The translations under genes and the position numbers were made by a program. A stretch of 64,000 bases of DNA from Pararhizobium capsulatum DSM 1112 (GTDB lineage Bacteria; Pseudomonadota; Alphaproteobacteria; Rhizobiales; Rhizobiaceae): the NCBI RefSeq assembly GCF_030814475.1, contig NZ_JAUSVF010000001.1, positions 62,001 through 126,000 on the forward strand, in the 5' to 3' direction. The notes beneath the pieces were generated by a model. The model was not told the origin of the DNA. It made no database searches and saw only the letters and a list, made by a program, of their open reading frames with translations. Positions 51,199 through 62,262 of the stretch are shown one piece after another. Position 1 is the first letter of the stretch; the number at the start of each line of letters is the position of its first letter.

Positions 51199-51665
51199 GT
51201 AAGGGCATGTCCCTGCCATTTCACGACATTTAGCATCGTCAGACTTCGCAAGCCATGCGACTGTCGCTGCGCGATGGGATTGGTTCGCTTTGGGCCGACA
51301 GCGGAAATGATTTCCGCTTGGCCCCGCCATTTCGGCCCGTCACACCACCTGCTGAAGTTCCTGAAAGTCGTCCGTCCGTGTCGCTAAAGTGGGTCGCGAT
51401 CTTTCAGATTCGCTTCCTACGCTGTAGCTCTTTGTTTTTGCGCATGTCGTTATCGCAAAACCGCTGCACACTTTTGCGCGACATGCTCTGGTGTGGCCCC
51501 GTCCGGAACGCGCCGTCATTGCGGTCATAGGCCCTGACCTGCCATGATGCGAGGCCGCCAAGCGGCGCCAACGTCTCCGCGATTGACAAATGGGGGGCAG
51601 CCCATAAGCTGAAGGAACGCCTTAAGATCGGAGATGAGGATCATGCAGGTGCCTAGCAGACACAC
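51199..51665. other. Intergenic region with a rhizobial REP-like repeat
   Basis: 467 bp before the solute-binding protein. Only the palindromic repeat at 51418-51488 stands out. A promoter for the downstream gene is expected but not evident; AGGAACG and GGAGATGAGG occur shortly before it. Confidence 0.5.
51418..51488. repeat. REP-like palindromic intergenic repeat
   Basis: GCATGTCG (51442-51449) and CGCAAAA (51454-51460) pair with TTTTGCG (51472-51478) and CGACATGC (51479-51486), preceded by CTGTAGCTCTTTGTTTTTGC. I recall near-identical sequence as a common intergenic repeat in Rhizobiaceae genomes. Confidence 0.7.
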
Positions 51666-52553
51666 ATGGCCAAGCACATGAGACGGCTACTGCTGGCGGG
51701 TCTGGCCTTTTGCCTTTCGGCCTTCTCAGCGGGCGCTGCAACGCTCGATACGATTGGGGAGCGCGGAAGCCTGCGCATCGGCTATATCTCCGACGAAGCG
51801 CCGTTTTCGTCCAGCAAGCCAGGAGCCGAACCGGTGGGATACGCCATCGACCTGTGCGACAGGATCGCTGATGAAATCGAGCATCAACTTCCCCAACTGA
51901 AGCGCGAATATGTCGAAATGACTCTCGCCCACGGCTTCGATGCGGTGAAGAATGAAGAGATCGACTTGCTTTGCGGTTCTATTACCGTGAATTTGGACAG
52001 ACGGGAAACCGTCGACTTCTCACAACCTATCTTCCTTACCGGGGCAAGCGCGCTGCTGCGCAAGGATTCACCGAACTACCTGCAGACGCTCTTTCTCGAC
52101 GGACCTGTGGTTCACACCGTCGGCGGGCGCGCTCCCACGGCTCCCACAAATGTCATCGGTATGCGTGCAAACACCACGACGGCGGCGGCGCTTCGCGAGG
52201 CACTTGCAATTCAGGTGTCGAAGACGAAACTCGCCGATTTCAACACGCATGAGGACGGGCTCAAGGCGCTGGAGGATCACAAGATCGATGCTTACATCGC
52301 CGATCAGGTACTGCTCATCAGCCTGGCCAAGCGGGCGCGCGATCCGTCCTCTCTCGATGTCGGCGATCGTCTGCTCACACACGAACCCTATGCGATCGCG
52401 TTGCGCCGCGACGACGCCGACTTCCGCCTGCTGGCGGACCGCGCGCTGACGGATTTATACCTGTCAGACGATTTTATGCCATTGCTCGAAAAATATTTCG
52501 GAGCCGAGGCGGCGATGCTGCACACGCAAATCATCATGCAGCATGTGCCATAG
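51666..52553 (+). CDS. Amino-acid-type ABC substrate-binding protein (SBP family 3)
   Basis: 295 residues with a Sec signal (about 1-24, cleaved near AGAA). The mature protein opens TLDTIGERGSLRIGYISDEA and has GYAIDLCDRIADEI, EIDLLCGSITVNLDRRETVDFSQP: family 3 binding proteins for polar amino acids. An unusually solitary gene: no permease or ATPase follows. It may feed a transporter elsewhere or act as a sensor. Confidence 0.88.
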   Translation: MAKHMRRLLLAGLAFCLSAFSAGAATLDTIGERGSLRIGYISDEAPFSSSKPGAEPVGYAIDLCDRIADEIEHQLPQLKREYVEMTLAHGFDAVKNEEIDLLCGSITVNLDRRETVDFSQPIFLTGASALLRKDSPNYLQTLFLDGPVVHTVGGRAPTAPTNVIGMRANTTTAAALREALAIQVSKTKLADFNTHEDGLKALEDHKIDAYIADQVLLISLAKRARDPSSLDVGDRLLTHEPYAIALRRDDADFRLLADRALTDLYLSDDFMPLLEKYFGAEAAMLHTQIIMQHVP

Positions 52554-52739
52554 TTAGTGTGAGTCGAGCGGAACCAGCTTGCCTGAAGATTGTTTGCAGG
52601 ATGCCTGCTTTCCGCCCCAGACGTGCCAAGCCCCGATGCGCCCTTATTTCGGTCGTCGAGGATTCCTCAGAGGCACCCCGAAAGCGGACATCACGGTGAG
52701 TTGGCAGCGGTATTTGCGCACAGAGTAGCCCTGCCATTT

Positions 52740-53162
52740 TCCGACCAATCTACCGCCGCCGCCACCCTCGGTGTCAACGTGGTTGCGACGAAGCGAATTC
52801 TGTTTGTTCTTGCCGCCTTCGGGACTGGGATTGCCGGCGCAGTTTGGCTTGCAAGTGCGACGAGCTTCCAGCCGAAGACATATTTTTCAGTCCAATGGAC
52901 AGCGTACATGATCTTCATGGTGCTGGTGGGCGGGCTCGGCCGCTTCGAAGGGGCAATCCTCGGAGCCGTGATCTTCTTCGCAATCGAAACGGCGTTCGGC
53001 GCGATGGGCGTCTGGTATCTCATCGGGCTGGGCCTCGTGGCGCTCTTGTTTTCGCTCTTTCTTCCTCGCGGCCTCTGGGGCGCAGTCGAGGAACGGCTGG
53101 GCATTTCGCTTATGCCTGTCGGGTACAGGCTGGAACTCAAAGCTAAGAAAGCAATGGAGTAG
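52740..53162 (+). pseudogene. Truncated LivM-type branched-chain ABC permease
   Basis: The last roughly 140 residues of a LivM permease: AAATLGVNVVATKRILFV, FSVQWTAYMIFMVLVGGLG and FLPRGLWGAVEERLG. About the first two thirds (membrane helices and start) are missing; upstream sequence is unrelated, so the 5' end has been deleted. Its stop is 3 bp before the fusion dehydrogenase start, and its last codons supply that gene's GGAG. A Liv transporter for aromatic acids may once have headed this operon. Confidence 0.8.
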
Positions 53163-53165
53163 GCA

Positions 53166-55313
53166 ATGCTATACGGAAAGACCGTAGTCATCACCGGCGT
53201 GTCAGCCGGCATTGGAGCCCGGACGGCGGAACTCGCGGTGTCTCTTGGAGCTGACGTTGTCGGCATCGACCTCAACGAGCCGAAGGTACCAAGTGCCAGC
53301 TTCATCAAGGGAAACCTCTCCACGCCCGAAGGTGTCCTCGACGTCGTTCAACAATTGCCAAAGTGCTTCGATGCGCTGCTTAACGTTGCAGGCATATCTG
53401 GGACGGTAGGAGCCGAAGCGACACTGGCTGTCAACTTCTATGGGTTACGGGCTCTTTCCGAAGCCGTGGCGCCATCGATCCGCGAGGGCGGAGCGATCGT
53501 AAACGTAGCCTCGGTCGCGGGCTACGGTTGGCGCGCCAACCTGGAGCGCGCGAAGGCGATGGTCGGGGTGCCGGGCTTTCCGGACATCAAGGCAGTTATG
53601 CAGGAAAACGGCATCCCCGATGAAATAGGGTATCCGCTGTCCAAGGAACTGCTCATCCTCTGGACGCAGAAGGCCGCTCAGCAAGCCCTGTTCAAAGACC
53701 GTGGGATCCGGGTGAACGCCGTGAGCCCAGGACCCGTCGAAACGACCATCCTCAAGGAGTTTCGCGCCGTGCTCGGCGATAAGAAGGTCGATTCCGACAT
53801 AACGCGGGTAGGACGCGCGGCAACGCCATCCGATATCGCGCCGGTCATACTGTTCCTTGCCTCGGACGGTGCCCGCTGGATCAATGGCGCAAACATTTCA
53901 AATGATGGCGGCCTCGAAGCCTCCATCAACGCCGAAGTGCTCGACACCGGTAAGATCGCAAGCCGTGCTCCAGCGTCCGGCCTGGACGACGTTAAGGCTG
54001 CGGTGTCCGCCGCGGCGGAAGCTTTCCCCGCATGGTCGAAAACCGGCCCTGGCGAGCGCCGAGCCTTACTGTTCAAAGCCGCCGACGTCCTCGCGTCAAA
54101 GGCGGACGAATTTGCGAAGATCATGATCGAGGAGACGGGCGGTACCGCTCCCTGGGCTGGCTTCAACACGATGCTCGCCGCCGGGATCCTTCGCGAAGCC
54201 GCGAGCATGACGACCCAGATCCAAGGCGAGATCATTCCCTCGGACAAGCCGGGCACTTTGTCTATGGGCGTGCGACAGGCCGCGGGTGTATGCCTGGGCA
54301 TCGCTCCCTGGAACGCGCCGGTCATTCTCGGCACCCGCGCTATCGCGATGGCGCTCGCTTGTGGCAATACCGTGATTCTCAAGGCGTCGGAGGCCTGCCC
54401 AGGACTGCATCTGCTCATCGGCCGCTCGCTCGTCGAAGCGGGCTTTCCCGATGGCGTTGTGAATGTTCTCACGAACGCGCCTCAAGACGCCGCCGAAATC
54501 GTGGAGGCCCTGATCGCCGCCCCCGAAGTGCGCCGGGTGAACTTCACAGGCTCCACCAAGGTGGGCCGCATCATCGGCGAACTTTGCGGCCGGCATATCA
54601 AACCGGCGCTGCTTGAGCTTGGCGGCAAGGCGCCGTTCATCGTCCTGGACGACGCGGACATCGAAGCTGCAGTGAACGGAGCGATCTTCGGAGCGTTTGC
54701 GAACATGGGGCAGATCTGCATGTCGACTGAACGCATCATCGTCGACGAAAAGATTGCAGATGAGTTTGTCGAAAAGCTCGCAGCGCGCGCTCGCAAGCTC
54801 CCTGCAGGCGACCCTCGCGGTCACGTCGTCCTTGGCTCGCTCGTTACTCAGGAAGCCGCTGCTAAGATGGAAGAACTGATCGCAGACGGTGTCGGGAAGG
54901 GCGCAAAACTGGTTGCCGGCGGCAAGCGCGAAGGATCGGTTGTCGAAGCGACCCTGCTCGATCACGTCAAGCCGGGGATGCGCAGCTTCGAAGAGGAATC
55001 ATTCGGGCCAGTGAAGCCGATTATCCGCGTGAAGGATGAAGCCGAAGCGATCAGGATAGCCAACGAATCCGAATACGGCCTTTCGTCCTCGGTCTACAGC
55101 CGCGACGTACAGCGAGCCATGGCGGTCGCGGAGCAGATCCAGTCCGGAATTTGCCATATAAATGGACCGACCGTGCACGACGAAGCGCAGATGCCGTTCG
55201 GCGGTGTGAAGAACTCCGGGTACGGGCGCTTTGGCGGCAAGGCGGCGATCAACGAATTCACGGACCTGCGTTGGATTACCATCGAAGATCCGCACCAACA
55301 CTATCCGTTCTGA
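53166..55313 (+). CDS. Fused coniferyl-alcohol-dehydrogenase-like SDR and aldehyde dehydrogenase
   Basis: 715 residues in one frame. Residues 1-250 are an SDR: TGVSAGIG coenzyme loop, NVAGISG, catalytic Tyr156/Lys160 in YPLSK, and GARWINGANISNDGG, the pattern of coniferyl-alcohol dehydrogenases. A short linker follows (about 251-270). Residues 270-715 are an aldehyde dehydrogenase of the vanillin/benzaldehyde type with catalytic Glu484 (LLELGGKAPF) and Cys518 (GQICMSTERI). The ALDH lacks the usual N-terminal strand of roughly 25-30 residues. It could oxidise an aromatic alcohol to the acid in two steps. All key residues are intact. Confidence 0.85.
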   Translation: MLYGKTVVITGVSAGIGARTAELAVSLGADVVGIDLNEPKVPSASFIKGNLSTPEGVLDVVQQLPKCFDALLNVAGISGTVGAEATLAVNFYGLRALSEAVAPSIREGGAIVNVASVAGYGWRANLERAKAMVGVPGFPDIKAVMQENGIPDEIGYPLSKELLILWTQKAAQQALFKDRGIRVNAVSPGPVETTILKEFRAVLGDKKVDSDITRVGRAATPSDIAPVILFLASDGARWINGANISNDGGLEASINAEVLDTGKIASRAPASGLDDVKAAVSAAAEAFPAWSKTGPGERRALLFKAADVLASKADEFAKIMIEETGGTAPWAGFNTMLAAGILREAASMTTQIQGEIIPSDKPGTLSMGVRQAAGVCLGIAPWNAPVILGTRAIAMALACGNTVILKASEACPGLHLLIGRSLVEAGFPDGVVNVLTNAPQDAAEIVEALIAAPEVRRVNFTGSTKVGRIIGELCGRHIKPALLELGGKAPFIVLDDADIEAAVNGAIFGAFANMGQICMSTERIIVDEKIADEFVEKLAARARKLPAGDPRGHVVLGSLVTQEAAAKMEELIADGVGKGAKLVAGGKREGSVVEATLLDHVKPGMRSFEEESFGPVKPIIRVKDEAEAIRIANESEYGLSSSVYSRDVQRAMAVAEQIQSGICHINGPTVHDEAQMPFGGVKNSGYGRFGGKAAINEFTDLRWITIEDPHQHYPF

Positions 55314-55350
55314 AGCGAGCCGGCTGGAGGTCGTTGGATCTCTGGCCGAC

Positions 55351-55454
55351 TAGAGGATGTCTGGTTCAGATTGAACCAGACATCCTCTAGATTCTTTTGT
55401 TTTCGTTTGTTTTTTCGGGAAACCCGGTTTCCATTTTTCCCGGGCAAACTCTAA
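55351..55454 (+). repeat. RIME-like intergenic element, copy C
   Basis: 104 bp: AGAGGATGTCTGGTTCAG and its complement form a near-perfect 37-bp palindrome, then ATTCTTTTGTTTTCGTTTG, then a second palindrome around GGGAAACCCGG, ending CAAACTCTAA. Sits in the 261-bp gap between the fusion gene and pcaR, where nothing else is recognised. Confidence 0.85.
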
Positions 55455-55574
55455 GCCCATCAATCGATCCTGTCCTGCGTGCCAATCTCCCAGGCGTGAA
55501 GCCATCGCGACCCTGTAAAATTCCAATGAAGGGATTGGAGGCGTCGTGCATTCACACAGCTTCCTTTGCCGATG

Positions 55575-56336
55575 TTATGCGAGAATGCCAGCCAGTTCGT
55601 TGCTCACGTCCAGGAGCGGATGGAGAAATCTTCCGACGATTGCGGACATGGGCTCGTCGGAAGCAGGCAGGCCTGTATTGAGGGCCGCCACGACCGAACC
55701 GCGCGCGTTCTTCAGTGGTACCGCGATCGAGCGAAGTCCAATTTCGACTTCCTGGTCGACGCATGCGTAGCCCTGGTGACGCACCTTGGCGATCTCCTGT
55801 TCGACAGCCTCCGGATCGGTGAGCGTGAACTGGGTCCTGGGCGTCATCGGGAAGCCCTCAAGGAGCGCTCGCGCGTCTCCTCCGGGAAGGCTGGCCAGCA
55901 ATACCCTTCCCATGGATGTGCAGTATGCGGGAAGCCGGGAGCCGGGCATGAGGGCGATGGACATGACCTTCCTCTGCGCAGCGCGGGCGACGTACACGAT
56001 TTCGCCTTCGTCGAGAATTGCCACGGAGGTGCTCTGGCCGATCTTCTCCGAGAGCTGGTCAAGCCATGGCTGAACAATACGTGGCAATGGCATGGAGGCC
56101 AGGCACCCGGTTCCGAGCCGCAGCACCCGCGGCGTCACGGTAAAGTACTTCCCGTCGTAGGCGCAGTAGCCGTGCTCGAAAAGTGTTAACAGGCATCGGC
56201 GCGTAGTCGCTCGGTCCAAACCCGAAATGGATGCAGCCTCAGAAATGCTGAGGCGAGGGGTGTCCGCCGTGAAGGCTTCGATGACACGCAGGCCTTTCGC
56301 AAGTCCGCCCATCATGTCGCTCTGCTTCGTTTCCAT
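55575..56336 (-). CDS. pcaR: IclR-family regulator, PcaR/PcaU/PobR type
   Basis: 253 residues. The helix-turn-helix is in LSISEAASISGLDRATTRRC, then the IclR effector domain (SLATSM-like IGQSTSVAILDEGEIVYVAR ... CTSMGRVLLASL). The PMPRI-like MPLPRIVQPWLDQL and GLRSIAVPL blocks match the protocatechuate-pathway group. ATG 56336 begins METKQSD; the frame runs far upstream but there it is an antisense shadow of pcaI. Divergent from pcaIJF with a strong dyad between, so it likely controls both. Confidence 0.9.
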   Translation of the reverse strand: METKQSDMMGGLAKGLRVIEAFTADTPRLSISEAASISGLDRATTRRCLLTLFEHGYCAYDGKYFTVTPRVLRLGTGCLASMPLPRIVQPWLDQLSEKIGQSTSVAILDEGEIVYVARAAQRKVMSIALMPGSRLPAYCTSMGRVLLASLPGGDARALLEGFPMTPRTQFTLTDPEAVEQEIAKVRHQGYACVDQEVEIGLRSIAVPLKNARGSVVAALNTGLPASDEPMSAIVGRFLHPLLDVSNELAGILA

Positions 56337-56351
56337 AGGAGTTCGATCCGC

Positions 56352-56390
56352 TTTGTGCGATATGTCAACAAAGTATTCATATCGCACAAA
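56352..56390. promoter_or_regulatory. PcaR operator between pcaR and pcaI
   Basis: Perfect 13-bp arms TTTGTGCGATATG (56352-56364) and CATATCGCACAAA (56378-56390) are 13 bp apart. A minus-strand TTGACA at 56363-56368 overlaps the left arm. IclR-family proteins of the beta-ketoadipate pathway bind such GTGCGATA-like halves. Confidence 0.8.
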
Positions 56391-56471
56391 ATCGTTGCCG
56401 TCGATGCTTTCGAGAGGTAGAAGCGCGCAAAGGCTCCGGTCTCGGATCGAGCCTCTCGATGGAGGATTTTC

Positions 56472-57179
56472 ATGGACAAGACGAAGATGAGCACCGCCGC
56501 GGCGGTAGAGCAGATCGGCGACGGCGCGACCGTCATGATTGGGGGCTTCGGTGGCTCTGGAGCCCCAATCGAGCTCATTCACGCGCTGATCGACAAGGGT
56601 CCCAGGAACCTTACCGTGATCAACAACAACGCGGGTAACGGACGAATTGGCATCGCTGCCATGATTGATGCGGGCATGGTCAAGAAGATGATCTGCTCGT
56701 TCCCGCGTTCCTCCGACCCACGCGCTTTCACCGACCGTTATGTCGCAGGCGAGATCGAGCTTGAGCTCGTACCGCAGGGAACGCTTGCAGAGCGCATTCG
56801 CGCTGGCGGTGCGGGAATACCGGCATTCTATACACCGACAGGCTACGGGACCGAACTGGCTGAGGGAAAACCGATCGAAGTCTTCGATGGACGCCACTAC
56901 GTTCAGGAGCGTTGGTTGAAAGCTGACTTCGCCATCGTCAAGGCGCAGCTTGGCGACATCCACGGGAACCTCACCTACAACAAGGCCGGTCGGAATTTTA
57001 ATCCGCTGATGTGCATGGCGGCCGCCAAGACCTTCGTACAGGTTTCCAGGATCGTGCCCCCGGGTGGCATCGATCCCGAGCAGGTAATCACGCCCGGTAT
57101 TTTCGTGGACGGCGTGGTCGAAGTCCCAAATCCGCAACAAGAAGAAGACCTTATCCGGGCTGGAGTGGCATACGCATGA
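56472..57179 (+). CDS. pcaI: 3-oxoadipate CoA-transferase subunit A
   Basis: 235 residues. DGATVMIGGFGGSGAPIELI carries the CoA-binding GGFG loop, with the NNNAGNG segment downstream. With PcaJ it transfers CoA from succinyl-CoA to 3-oxoadipate. GGAGG precedes the ATG by 6 bp. It overlaps pcaJ by 4 bp (ATGA). Confidence 0.94.
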   Translation: MDKTKMSTAAAVEQIGDGATVMIGGFGGSGAPIELIHALIDKGPRNLTVINNNAGNGRIGIAAMIDAGMVKKMICSFPRSSDPRAFTDRYVAGEIELELVPQGTLAERIRAGGAGIPAFYTPTGYGTELAEGKPIEVFDGRHYVQERWLKADFAIVKAQLGDIHGNLTYNKAGRNFNPLMCMAAAKTFVQVSRIVPPGGIDPEQVITPGIFVDGVVEVPNPQQEEDLIRAGVAYA

Positions 57180-57865
57180 CCATCGACACGCGCGACGACA
57201 TCAAACTTTCAAACGCCCAGATTGCATGGCGGGCGGCGCAGGACATTGAGGATGGCGCCTACGTCAACCTTGGTATCGGGTTTCCGGAGATGGTTGCCCG
57301 CTATCAGCCTCCAGGCCGCCAGGCGATCTTCCACACGGAAAATGGAATCCTCGACTTTGGCGAGCCGCCAGCAGCAGGTGAAGAGGACTGGGATCTTATC
57401 AATGCCGGCAAGCGGGCCGTAACACTGAAACCAGGTGCCGCTTTCTTCCACCATGCGGACAGCTTTGCCATGGTTCGCGGCGGTCATCTCGACGTCGCCA
57501 TTCTCGGCGCCTATCAGGTAGCCCAGAACGGTGATCTCGCAAATTGGCGCGTTGGCAATAAGGGCGTGCCGGCGGTTGGCGGGGCGATGGACTTGGTCCA
57601 CGGGGCCAAGCAGGTCTTCGTCATCACCGAACATGTGACCAAGGACGGCAAACCGAAACTCGTCGGCGAATGCACTTTTCCCCTGACGGGCGTCGGCTGC
57701 ATCACGCGCGTGTACACGAGCCATGCCGTCATCGACATCGTCGATGGGCGTTTCGTCGTGCGCGAGAAGTTGGCCGCAATGACGATGGAGGAACTTCAGG
57801 CGATGACTGGCGCGCCGCTCCATGCCGACGGTCTCGTCGTCGATCTCGTCGTTCCACAACTCTGA
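57176..57865 (+). CDS. pcaJ: 3-oxoadipate CoA-transferase subunit B
   Basis: 229 residues. GAYVNLGIGFPEMV and HTENGILDFG (with the catalytic Glu) define the beta chain, and GGHLDVAILGAYQVAQNGDLA follows. ATG 57176 overlaps the pcaI stop as ATGA, so the two chains are coupled. The product 3-oxoadipyl-CoA is cleaved by PcaF, encoded next. Confidence 0.94.
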   Translation: MTIDTRDDIKLSNAQIAWRAAQDIEDGAYVNLGIGFPEMVARYQPPGRQAIFHTENGILDFGEPPAAGEEDWDLINAGKRAVTLKPGAAFFHHADSFAMVRGGHLDVAILGAYQVAQNGDLANWRVGNKGVPAVGGAMDLVHGAKQVFVITEHVTKDGKPKLVGECTFPLTGVGCITRVYTSHAVIDIVDGRFVVREKLAAMTMEELQAMTGAPLHADGLVVDLVVPQL

Positions 57866-57877
57866 GAGAACTTTCCC

Positions 57878-59080
57878 ATGAGCGAAGTCTTAATCTGCGA
57901 CTATATCCGCACGCCGATCGGCCGCTACGGCGGCGCGCTCTCGTCGGTGCGAGCCGACGACCTTGGTGCGGTTCCGCTCAAGGCGCTCATGGCACGCAAT
58001 GCCAGCGTGGATTGGGAGGCCGTCGATGATGTGATTTTCGGCTGCGCCAACCAGGCAGGGGAAGACAATCGCAACGTTGCGCGGATGTCGCTTCTGCTCG
58101 CGGGCCTGCCGGTAAACGTGTCGGGCACGACCATCAACCGCCTCTGCGGATCGGGCATGGATGCGGTGTTGACGGCAGCACGGGCGATCAAGGCGGGCGA
58201 GGCCGAGCTTATGATCGCCGGCGGCGTCGAAAGCATGTCCAGAGCGCCATTCGTAATGCCCAAGGCCGATGCCGCTTTCTCCCGAGCTGCGGAGATCTAT
58301 GACACGACGATCGGCTGGAGGTTCGTCAATAAGTTGATGAAGGCCCAGTATGGCGTCGACTCGATGCCTGAAACCGGGGAAAACGTGGCTGAGGATTTTG
58401 GTATCAGCCGTGAGGATCAGGACGCCTTTGCACTGCGCTCCCAGGCCAAGGCAGCGGCTGCGCAGCAGGATGGCCGGCTTGCTCGGGAGATCACGCCCGT
58501 CTCGGTCGCGCAACGAAAAGGCGATCCAATCCTCGTGGAGAAGGACGAACATCCCAGAGCAACAACCATGGAAGCTCTAGCGAAACTGCCGACACCGTTC
58601 CGCAACGGCGGAACCGTCACGGCTGGCAACGCAAGTGGCGTCAACGATGGCGCGGCTGCACTTCTGCTTGCATCGCCTGAAGCTGCGAAAAAGTATGGTC
58701 TCGTGCCGATCGCGCGCGTCGTTGGTGGAGCGACCGCGGGCGTGCCACCGCGGATCATGGGCTTCGGTCCAGCACCGGCCTCAAGGAAGCTGCTTGCGCG
58801 CCTGGGATTGTCGCAAAAGGATATCGACATCATCGAGCTCAACGAGGCTTTCGCCTCTCAAGGATTGGCCACGCTGCGTGATCTGGGTATTGCCGATGAC
58901 GACCCGAGGGTGAATACCAAGGGCGGGGCGATTGCTCTTGGACATCCGCTTGGAATGTCTGGAGCTCGTATCACGGGGACAGCCGCGCTAGAGCTCCAGG
59001 CGAACGGTTTGCGGCGGTCTCTGTCCACGATGTGCATCGGCGTCGGCCAGGGCATCGCCGTCGTTCTGGAGCGCGTCTAG
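57878..59080 (+). CDS. pcaF: 3-oxoadipyl-CoA thiolase
   Basis: 400 residues. NRLCGSGMDAVLTAARAI contains the nucleophilic Cys, NASGVNDGAAALLLAS the second signature, and GGAIALGHPLGMSGARI plus CIGVGQGIAVV the third with catalytic His and Cys. It yields succinyl-CoA and acetyl-CoA, which enter the TCA cycle. Starts 12 bp after pcaJ. Confidence 0.95.
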   Translation: MSEVLICDYIRTPIGRYGGALSSVRADDLGAVPLKALMARNASVDWEAVDDVIFGCANQAGEDNRNVARMSLLLAGLPVNVSGTTINRLCGSGMDAVLTAARAIKAGEAELMIAGGVESMSRAPFVMPKADAAFSRAAEIYDTTIGWRFVNKLMKAQYGVDSMPETGENVAEDFGISREDQDAFALRSQAKAAAAQQDGRLAREITPVSVAQRKGDPILVEKDEHPRATTMEALAKLPTPFRNGGTVTAGNASGVNDGAAALLLASPEAAKKYGLVPIARVVGGATAGVPPRIMGFGPAPASRKLLARLGLSQKDIDIIELNEAFASQGLATLRDLGIADDDPRVNTKGGAIALGHPLGMSGARITGTAALELQANGLRRSLSTMCIGVGQGIAVVLERV

Positions 59081-59138: not shown

Positions 59139-59785
59139 TTAGTCCGGTTTGTATTCGCGGTGGGCTTCCGGATCTCTTACGGCGTAACTCAACGCGCCGA
59201 GTTCGCTCCATACATCCGAAGGCAGGGACGCTTCAGTCCAGTCCAAGGTCTGGAGTATTCGTCGGGGTTGCGAAACGCCCACGACCGTCGACTGTATTCG
59301 GGGATCACGAAGCGAGAACTGCAGGCCGCTGCGCCGAGCGGAACAGATTGCTTTGAACAAATTTGCTCGATGCTTCGCACCGGCTCAAGATCTCGCTCGT
59401 TGGCCTCTTGATAGGTTAGTCTCTGCACCTGCGAACTTCCCTTTGCAAGGACGCCTCCCGCAAAGGGAGCTGCATTCAGGATTGAGATGCGATTGGCCGA
59501 CGCAAATTCGAACAGTGCGTCCGCGTTCCGGTTCAACAAGGTGTATCGATTGTGGCTGAGAATAAGATCAAATGGATAATCTTTCACGAGCGAGAGCATT
59601 AGATCGACGCGGCCCATCGCAAGACCGACGGCTGTCGCCAATCCTTCCTCTTTCATTTTAAAGAGCGCGTCTAACGCTCCTCCCGGACGTGTCACCTGTT
59701 CAATATCTTCCGCGTATTCCGGATCGTGCAGATGCAGGACCTGCACGTGGCCGGGGATACGGCGCGTGCAGCAACCTCCGACCAG
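59139..59785 (-). pseudogene. Aldo/keto reductase remnant, frameshifted and cut by IS21-type element
   Basis: The C-terminal part of an aldo/keto reductase (VQVLHLHDPEYAEDIEQV, LILSHNRYTLLNRNADALFE, then GVSQPRRILQTLDWTEA) is read in two frames. A one-base deletion near 59324 splits it (GVPLGAAA | LQFSLRDPRI). The 5' half is missing at about 59785, exactly where the IS element begins. The type resembles L-fucose/D-threo-aldose dehydrogenases. Confidence 0.8.
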
Positions 59786-59910
59786 TGTCAACGGCGGAGC
59801 AAAAGCAGGCCAGTGCGGCGGAGTAAAACCAGGCCAGCGGCAGGGCTGTGTTGCCGACATGGAAATGGCCCCGATCGGGGCCATTTCCATGTCGGCGGCG
59901 GTGATTTCGA

Positions 59911-60777
59911 TCAGGGTGTGAGGATTTCGCCGGTATCGGGGTCGACGGTTTGGGTGGCCTGGTTTTGCTCCGCCCCTGATGACGGATTGCGGCGGCGGGC
60001 GGCGGACTGTTTCAGCCGGTAGCTGTCACCATTCATGGTTAGGATGCTGACGTGGTGGGTCAGCCTGTCGAGCAACGCACCGGTCAGCCGCTCGGACCCT
60101 AGCACCGACGTCCAGTCCTCAAACGGCAGATTGGACGTGACGATCGTCGAGCCGCGTTCGTAGCGTTGCGAGAAGGTCTCGAACAACAGCTCCGCTCCGG
60201 TCGATGACAAGGGGACATAGCCGAGTTCATCGATGATCAGCAGTTTTACCGAAGCCAGATCGCGCTGCAGCTTGAGAAGCCGCCGCTCGTCACGCGCCTC
60301 CAGGAGCTGACTGACCAACGAGGCTGCAGTGGTGAACGTGACGGTGAAGCCTTTCTGGCAGGCGGCGAGGCCCAGAGCGAGCGCGACATGGGTCTTGCCG
60401 GTGCCACTGTTGCCGAGAGCGATGATGTTGTCGCGCCGCAGGATGTATTCGCAACGGGCAAGCTCCAGGACAAGCATCTTGTTCAAGCCGGGTATGGCCG
60501 TGAAGTCGAAGGTGTCGAAGCTTTTGACCGCCGGGAAGCGAGCCGCGCGAATGCGCCGTTCGACTGTCCGGCGTTCCCGGTCGATCAGTTCCAATTCAAT
60601 CAGGCGCAACAGATAGCGGGGATGGTCGACGCCGCTCTCGGCGCATTCCCGTGCTACCTTCTCATACTCGCGCAACACCGTCGGCAGTTTTAATTGCTTG
60701 AGATGGTGGGACAGAAGGATTTGCGGGGTTCCACCCGTTGTGCCTGATGGCATCGTGTCGCTTGCTGTGCGGGTCAT
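59911..60777 (-). CDS. istB: IS21 ATP-binding helper protein IstB
   Basis: 288 residues. Walker A GNSGTGKTHVALALGLAAC and Walker B LLIIDELGYVPLSS are those of the DnaC-like AAA+ helper of IS21. It overlaps istA by 4 bp (ATGA). It ends inside the left part of the element and keeps all motifs. Confidence 0.93.
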   Translation of the reverse strand: MTRTASDTMPSGTTGGTPQILLSHHLKQLKLPTVLREYEKVARECAESGVDHPRYLLRLIELELIDRERRTVERRIRAARFPAVKSFDTFDFTAIPGLNKMLVLELARCEYILRRDNIIALGNSGTGKTHVALALGLAACQKGFTVTFTTAASLVSQLLEARDERRLLKLQRDLASVKLLIIDELGYVPLSSTGAELLFETFSQRYERGSTIVTSNLPFEDWTSVLGSERLTGALLDRLTHHVSILTMNGDSYRLKQSAARRRNPSSGAEQNQATQTVDPDTGEILTP

Positions 60778-62262
60778 GCTGCCAACACCGAATAGTCTGC
60801 CGCCAAGGTAATCTTCACATCCATCTTCGGCAGATGCGGATAGGCAGCAAGATCAAGTCGGGCTGGACGACGTTCGATACGTGCCAGTGCAATCAGTTTG
60901 ACCGCATCGAAGCCGGCTGCGCCCAGATGGATCGCTTCGGTCACAGCAAAGGTGACGACGTCCTTTGGCATTGCCTCCAGAAGCCGCAGCACCTGGATGA
61001 ACTCACGCTTACCCCGATTGCCCATTCGCGCTTCCAGCAAATGGCGCAGATGCTGGAACACCTCCGGCAGGTCCCACCCCTGCAAGGCGGCTGCCTGGTC
61101 GCGCGCATTGGGCTTCATCTCGATCAGCGCCAGATAATGCAGCGGATTGGAGACGAATACGCCTTCGCCATAGGACCGTGGGTGGCGTGCGATCTCCTGG
61201 CCTCTACACAGGATGACGACCTCCTCGACAAAGCCCTTCACCACAATATCCTGGAAGCCGTAGGCGGTCGGCACTGAATAGTCGTTGGTGCGATAGCGCA
61301 CCAACGACATTGATGAGACACGACCGGCACGCTTCTCGCAGGGTTCAAGCGGCACGGCCGGGAGGCGGCGCAGTGCCGCGGTATCGGCCACCAGACGTTC
61401 ACCAATGGTCTCGGTGTGCCGACCGGCGCATTCACTCTGGCGGCCCCGACAACGGTCTTCGAGCATTGCGTTCAACGCCTCGAAGCTTGCCACCTGCGGG
61501 ATCGGCACCATGAAGTTGGCACGCGAGAACTTCACCAGCCCCTCGACCTTGCCCTTGTCGTTGCCCTTGGCCGGTCGCCCGAACCGGTCCCGGAACAGGT
61601 AGTGACTGACGAGTTCGGTGAAGGCACGGGTTCGATCGCGTTTGCCGTCGCCGCAGATTTTGGCCACCGCGATCTTGAGGTTGTCGTAGAGGATCGAAAG
61701 CGGCACGCCGCCAAAGAATGCAAAGGCCGAGACATGCCCATCGAGGAATGCCTCCGTCGTCTCGCGCGGATAGGCCTTCACGAAACACGCATCCGACTGC
61801 GGGATATCCATGCAGAAGAAATGTATCTTCTGGCGCACACCGCCGATGATGGCGATCGCCTCGCCAAAGTCGACCTGTGCATGTCCCGGCGGATGCGATA
61901 GCGGCACGAACGTCTCTCGACCCTTGGATCGGCAAATCCTGACGTAGTCCTTCACCACCGTGTAGCCACCGCCAAAGCCATGTTCGTCACGCAACCGTTC
62001 GAATATCCGCTTGGCACTGTGTCGTTGCTTCACCGGCCCGGCCTGATCCGACTGCAAAATCTCATCGATGACTGGAAGCAAACATTCCAAGCTTTGGCTT
62101 GCCTACAGGCTTCGTGCGCGTATAGCCCGGTGGAAGCGAGAATCGGCACATCTTCGAAACCGTCTCACGGCTTAAACCGAAGACCCGAGAGGCCTCGCGG
62201 CGGCTGTGACCCTCAACGAAAACAAACCGGCGAACGGCGGCGTAACTCTCCACGACAAACAT
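60774..62262 (-). pseudogene. istA: IS21 transposase IstA, frameshifted
   Basis: The N-terminal helix-turn-helix (MFVVESYAAVRRFVFVEG ... GLSRETVSKM, 62262 downward) and the remaining 438 codons (LECLLPVIDEIL ... with DFGEA and integrase-core YDNLK) lie in different frames. One extra base near 62088-62092 separates KPVGKPKL from ECLLPVID. The catalytic DDE region is downstream, so unless rescued by slippage the product is inactive. Confidence 0.8.

Follow-up and report, generated by a model that had tools for sequence, protein, structure and literature searches.

Among the described fusions of an aldehyde dehydrogenase (ALDH) with an alcohol dehydrogenase (ADH), the closest systems are AdhE and BdhE. 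According to the paper describing them, neighbouring ALDH and ADH genes were inferred to be able to fuse by small deletions, with interfaces coming later (PMC12454647). The locus studied here resembles them in that an ALDH is fused with an alcohol dehydrogenase from neighbouring genes. However, AdhE and BdhE carry an iron-type ADH (PF00465) at their C-terminus and form fused clades with ALDH-ADH interfaces (PMC12454647), whereas here the partner is a short-chain dehydrogenase (SDR) that comes first, PF00465 is absent among the five Pfam families matched, and no clade was found. On this comparison, the locus matches only the first step of the AdhE/BdhE fusion route.

Among solved structures, those closest in sequence to the ALDH half are SALDAP (6qhn), a vanillin dehydrogenase (9ihb) and NahF (4jz6), all of them stand-alone enzymes, whereas here the ALDH is fused; a fold search again placed 6qhn and 4jz6 on top. 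The best solved relative of the SDR half, the 3-alpha-hydroxysteroid dehydrogenase/carbonyl reductase 1fjh (E 9.4e-22), is likewise stand-alone, and distant. SALDAP oxidises benzaldehyde and hydroxybenzaldehydes (PMC12718228). According to the paper on its crystal structure (PMC8996149), it is a dimer, and its short N-terminus is a surface region without contacts to other subunits. This N-terminus is shortened as in the ALDH half studied here, but less so: before the aligned start of the fused ALDH, SALDAP retains 14 residues and 9ihb retains 10. Given that the active SALDAP is shortened too, a complete N-terminus was not taken as defining the salicylaldehyde/vanillin type of ALDH.

The analysed window is a stretch of 64,000 nucleotides from Pararhizobium capsulatum DSM 1112. 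The features relevant to the fusion are the following:

52743..53159, + strand: C-terminal stub of a LivM-type permease, equivalent to residues 267-405 of the ORF in the nearest intact locus (L037) and 86% identical to it; matches PF02653 at profile positions 163-252 only
53166..55313, + strand: fused SDR-ALDH reading frame, 715 codons and a TGA stop
53166..53942, + strand: SDR half, equivalent to residues 1-259 of a 261-residue coniferyl-alcohol-dehydrogenase-type SDR, 82% identical to residues 1-259 of the L037 SDR
53943..53945, + strand: joint codon GAC (residue 260), where a net 102 bp are absent compared with L037
53946..55310, + strand: ALDH half, equivalent to a 482-residue salicylaldehyde/vanillin-type ALDH from residue 28 onwards, 90% identical to residues 28-482 of L037
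55350..55390, + strand: 19-bp perfect inverted repeat with a T-rich tail just 3' of the fusion stop, inside a dispersed repeat; possible terminator

The sequence-only reading had described one frame joining an SDR to an ALDH with intact catalytic residues, and this observation is confirmed as a real and unusual frame: it starts with ATG, contains no internal stop over its 715 codons, and carries the named residues at the positions given. Pfam places short-chain dehydrogenase matches at residues 5-119 and 144-250, and the NF009092 coniferyl-alcohol dehydrogenase model scores 324.7 bits, above its curated cut-off of 242. Aldedh (PF00171) matches residues 261-704 with 500.7 bits, while none of the NCBIfam ALDH models among the best 25 of 209 attains its cut-off. 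In a 15-row alignment with relatives, N90, S116, Y156 and K160 of the SDR and N383, K406, E484 and C518 of the ALDH are invariant; which of these residues are catalytic follows from what is known of the two families. The nearest listed stand-alone proteins are an SDR of 261 residues (88% identity) and an ALDH of 482 residues (92%). No other close copy of either half exists in the genome itself, where other SDRs are 26-31% identical to the SDR half in their long matches and the best other ALDH reaches 38%.

In relatives, the two genes are separate. The main comparison comprised 36 distinct SDR-ALDH neighbour pairs, where pairs sharing the same first 300 SDR bases entered only once, and a pair qualified with at least 38% SDR identity, at least 50% ALDH identity and a gap of no more than 400 bases; a stop lies between the genes in 35, and the window alone lacks one. 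Fourteen further loci yielded five intact pairs, all with a stop, one unfused pair with a broken SDR, and eight loci without an upstream SDR match. Hence the genes are separated by a stop in 40/40 intact pairs outside the window (35 + 5), which bears out the claim that these enzymes are usually encoded apart. Distant SDR-ALDH pairs in Curvibacter (L049 and L055; 41% and 62-63% identity) also lie side by side, in one frame that a single stop interrupts, so the pairing is not confined to rhizobia.

L037, the nearest pair, spans 2250 bases between its SDR start and its ALDH stop, and the window 2148, i.e., a net loss of 102 bases that preserves the frame. BLAST alignments against L037 end at SDR residue 259 and resume at ALDH residue 28, with one codon between, so that a single codon stands where L037 has 105 bases, made up of two SDR codons, the stop, a 15-base spacer and 27 ALDH codons. 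The SDR half hence lacks its last two residues relative to the 261-residue form (261 codons in 31/32 relatives, 259 in L100), and the ALDH half lacks its first 27, starting at the residue-28 equivalent of relatives with 481-483 residues. The missing ALDH N-terminus is also evident from the Aldedh match, which is entered only at profile position 16. These values agree with the earlier proposal that an in-frame deletion fused the neighbours at the expense of the ALDH N-terminus. No microhomology of note was seen by eye at the joint, as compared with a relative and not with the direct ancestor.

It is very unlikely that the 102 bp are present in the cell and were lost in sequencing or assembly. 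The genome is a single assembly with an estimated contamination of 4.68, and a frameshift in another gene (pobA, see below) may itself be an error, which would speak for such an artefact. However, the junction is in frame and lies inside a 4.27-Mb contig, 24/24 ALDH-type matches listed for this genome lack an internal stop, and long-read errors usually involve one or two bases, compared with 102 bp here.

A single match covering residues 1-715 was found in 1/26 genus, 1/394 family and 1/397 order genomes, and each time in the window's own genome. These genome sets overlap; the family search (E <= 1e-110) refers to the matches listed, ordered by E-value, and the order search (E <= 1e-200) is strict and would miss weaker fusions. 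With the SDR half as query, a search of some 5.8 billion clustered proteins, limited to lengths of roughly 393-1251 residues, gave 6837 scored candidates and eleven matches: eight LivM-SDR and three SDR-ALDH proteins, the window's own protein being absent. The three SDR-ALDH proteins (P0127, P0129 and P0131) contain out-of-frame stretches and were rejected as frameshifted composites. Relatives with open-frame lengths of about 640-1136 were also considered, and direct reading of the fetched loci showed none to be fused; rows with a shorter open frame and rows beyond the matches listed were read in part. In L176, the broken pair among the fourteen further loci, the SDR is split over two frames and stop codons precede the ALDH, and two apparent compact pairs (L075 and L088) were discarded because the ALDH there precedes a different SDR. 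An established SDR-ALDH fusion family is hence rejected, with zero clean members in the genus, family and order genomes, the long proteins and the extra loci. No SDR-ALDH fusion was described in the titles and abstract openings of the literature covered, which included few subscription papers.

Two side observations concern other long frames. The eight LivM-SDR proteins (P0122-P0126, P0128, P0130 and P0132) combine a LivM-type permease and an SDR from this type of operon in a single chain, a junction at the opposite side of the SDR gene; the window's LivM stub and SDR share a frame, with a TAG between them that starts six bases 5' of the SDR ATG. In L177 (G677), an ALDH relative (72%) lies in a 1015-codon frame, whose 581 codons preceding the match show no SDR similarity.

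In L037 and in Agrobacterium cucumeris pO132a, the same two genes occur in the same order and on the same strand as in the fusion, but as separate genes with a stop and an own ALDH start, at the end of a whole operon; this operon, annotated as complete in pO132a, encodes an ALDH, a substrate-binding protein, two ATPases, two permeases, the SDR and the ALDH. The window's version is fused and the operon truncated: the only upstream remnant is the LivM stub, i.e., the last 139 residues of the operon's second permease. Besides this stub, which is matched over LivM residues 265-404, no LivM was found in the genome (E <= 1e-15). A search for the operon's substrate-binding protein found none there but detected it in 4/4 other genomes. 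Matches to the upstream stretch 51300-52740, among those listed in genus genomes, are all short and nearly all belong to a dispersed repeat.

Between the window and L037, dN/dS ranges from 0.040 (ALDH half) through 0.054 (LivM stub) to 0.063 (SDR half); these tests are weak because synonymous sites are near saturation (pS 0.65-0.69). Low dN/dS was discarded as proof of a function of the fusion: the stub is equally conserved even though most of its permease is missing, and the low values are hence no sign of selection on the fusion. Given that the value for the stub resembles those of the SDR and ALDH halves, the damage looks recent, and a recent break of the operon is the simplest reading of these sequences. 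With L041, L117 and L121 as outgroups (the stub without L121), replacements on the window and L037 sides number 9 v 3 for the stub, 13 v 7 for the SDR and 8 v 12 for the ALDH; with L041 as sole outgroup, the counts are 8 v 4, 19 v 13 and 14 v 26. At columns otherwise invariant over 32 rows (L100 excluded), the window has four changes in the SDR and three in the ALDH, compared with 0-4 and 0-5 in other rows; its changes are mild in kind, and none affects a listed catalytic position.

The frame may also be a dead remnant, open but useless, either unexpressed or with one half unable to assemble, and decaying along with the LivM stub. We regard this as a possible though less probable explanation. 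It fits the loss of the upstream operon genes, the equal conservation of a stub missing most of its permease, and the split state of the genome's only strong match to 4-hydroxybenzoate hydroxylase (pobA). Against it stand the 715 codons without a stop or frameshift, the intact state of the catalytic residues checked, a GGAG seen by eye 5' of the fusion ATG, and the replacement counts against L037, which show no clear excess on the window side. No sigma-70-like site was found in 52400-55600, which carries little information since only 1.0 was expected by chance.

The pobA match just mentioned (G000:C2:398576-399737, L165) is split over two frames; it may be a pseudogene, in line with lost aromatic catabolism, or else reflect an error of assembly. 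Downstream of the fusion, two CoA-transferase ORFs and a thiolase (56472-59080) probably correspond to pcaI, pcaJ and pcaF, names that follow from Pfam matches and gene order. The fusion does neighbour these genes, as had been noted. Given the inverted repeat and an IclR-type gene on the opposite strand (from the domains of ORF 55575-57140) lying between, the fusion and these genes adjoin each other but do not clearly form one operon. The thiolase/CoA-transferase stretch is matched over most of its length in G003, G004 and G011, and the thiolase alone in many other genomes; it is a stretch separate from the fusion operon. Dispersed repeats of about 105 bp lie at 55350-55454 and 51384-51490, with further copies in the genome (those listed mostly 86-96% identical) and in the genus. 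They resemble rhizobial mosaic repeats; a search under a name for rhizobial repeats returned no match. At 59189-62090, an IS21-type istB and a Mu-transposase-like ORF lie beside a partial aldo/keto reductase (profile positions 103-245 of 291), which suggests further disruption near the CoA-transferase/thiolase genes.

An AlphaFold2 model of the monomer, built on a 51-row alignment, has a mean pLDDT of 86.4 and a pTM of 0.62; with 15 rows, the model had been poor (mean pLDDT 71.9). A folded structure is predicted for both domains, and the modelled ALDH half superposes on 6qhn with a target TM-score of 0.93. The joint is modelled with low confidence: residues 248-266 fall below a pLDDT of 50, as do residues 674-680 and 683-689 in the ALDH, so that, with the pTM of 0.62, both the joint and the domain arrangement are uncertain. 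ALDH activity of the fusion is likely but not assured, since the 14 N-terminal residues that SALDAP still has are absent. The SDR half has lost two residues only, yet a large partner has been added at its C-terminus. SDRs are usually oligomers and SALDAP is a dimer; hence the fusion could block oligomer assembly.

It is plausible that one polypeptide would perform both the alcohol and the aldehyde steps, as two tethered enzymes. The SDR, using an NAD-type cofactor, would turn an aromatic alcohol into its aldehyde, which the ALDH would convert to the acid with NAD+. We consider it unlikely that this is a selected bifunctional enzyme in which a toxic aldehyde is handed from one site to the other, the mechanism proposed for AdhE/BdhE. 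In favour of it, the reactions are consecutive, neither half has another close copy in the genome, and two independent ALDH-ADH fusions of neighbouring genes, with small deletions proposed, are described in PMC12454647. However, the searches found no clean fused relative, the joint is of low confidence with uncertain domain placement and no sign of an interface, and the adjoining transporter has been lost. Channelling and selection are thus unsupported. The sequence-only reading hence holds for the separate genes and the deletion origin, and lacks support where it supposed that the toxic aldehyde could be held within one protein, as does the idea that the fusion was kept for that purpose: the searches showed no clean fused relative, the rest of the operon is gone, and the permease stub is equally conserved.

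The fusion looks like a recent one-off and not an established new enzyme. We favour, with a probability of roughly 55%, a recent in-frame deletion in a decaying aromatic-compound operon, giving two independent tethered enzymes if expressed, as an unselected by-product. The deletion (net 102 bp compared with L037) would have removed the 3' end of the SDR gene, the spacer and the 5' end of the ALDH gene, while upstream the operon also lost its first ALDH, the substrate-binding protein, both ATPases, one permease and most of the other. If expressed, the product would fold into two enzymes that are independent of each other and joined by a flexible tether, and the aldehyde would pass between the halves through solution, with no channel. 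The fusion would then be a by-product of operon decay and no selected new enzyme. Several points weigh against this explanation: the fusion could block oligomer assembly, as mentioned; the intact 715-codon frame, with a chance of keeping frame of 1 in 3, would also fit selection; the loss from the ALDH is a full 27 residues, where SALDAP and 9ihb keep 14 and 10, so tolerance of so large a loss is uncertain; and the model has two stretches of low confidence in the ALDH.

If the frame is dead, it is an instructive case of operon decay yielding a convincing but meaningless fusion frame. More tentatively, and in our view doubtfully, it may be a newborn, independent SDR-based fusion of an aromatic ALDH and alcohol dehydrogenase, just after the deletion, with both activities and as yet no channel or interface. 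If expressed and active, it would represent the first step predicted in PMC12454647, with close unfused relatives as the state before fusion, and one could measure how tethering alone affects aldehyde release and fitness.
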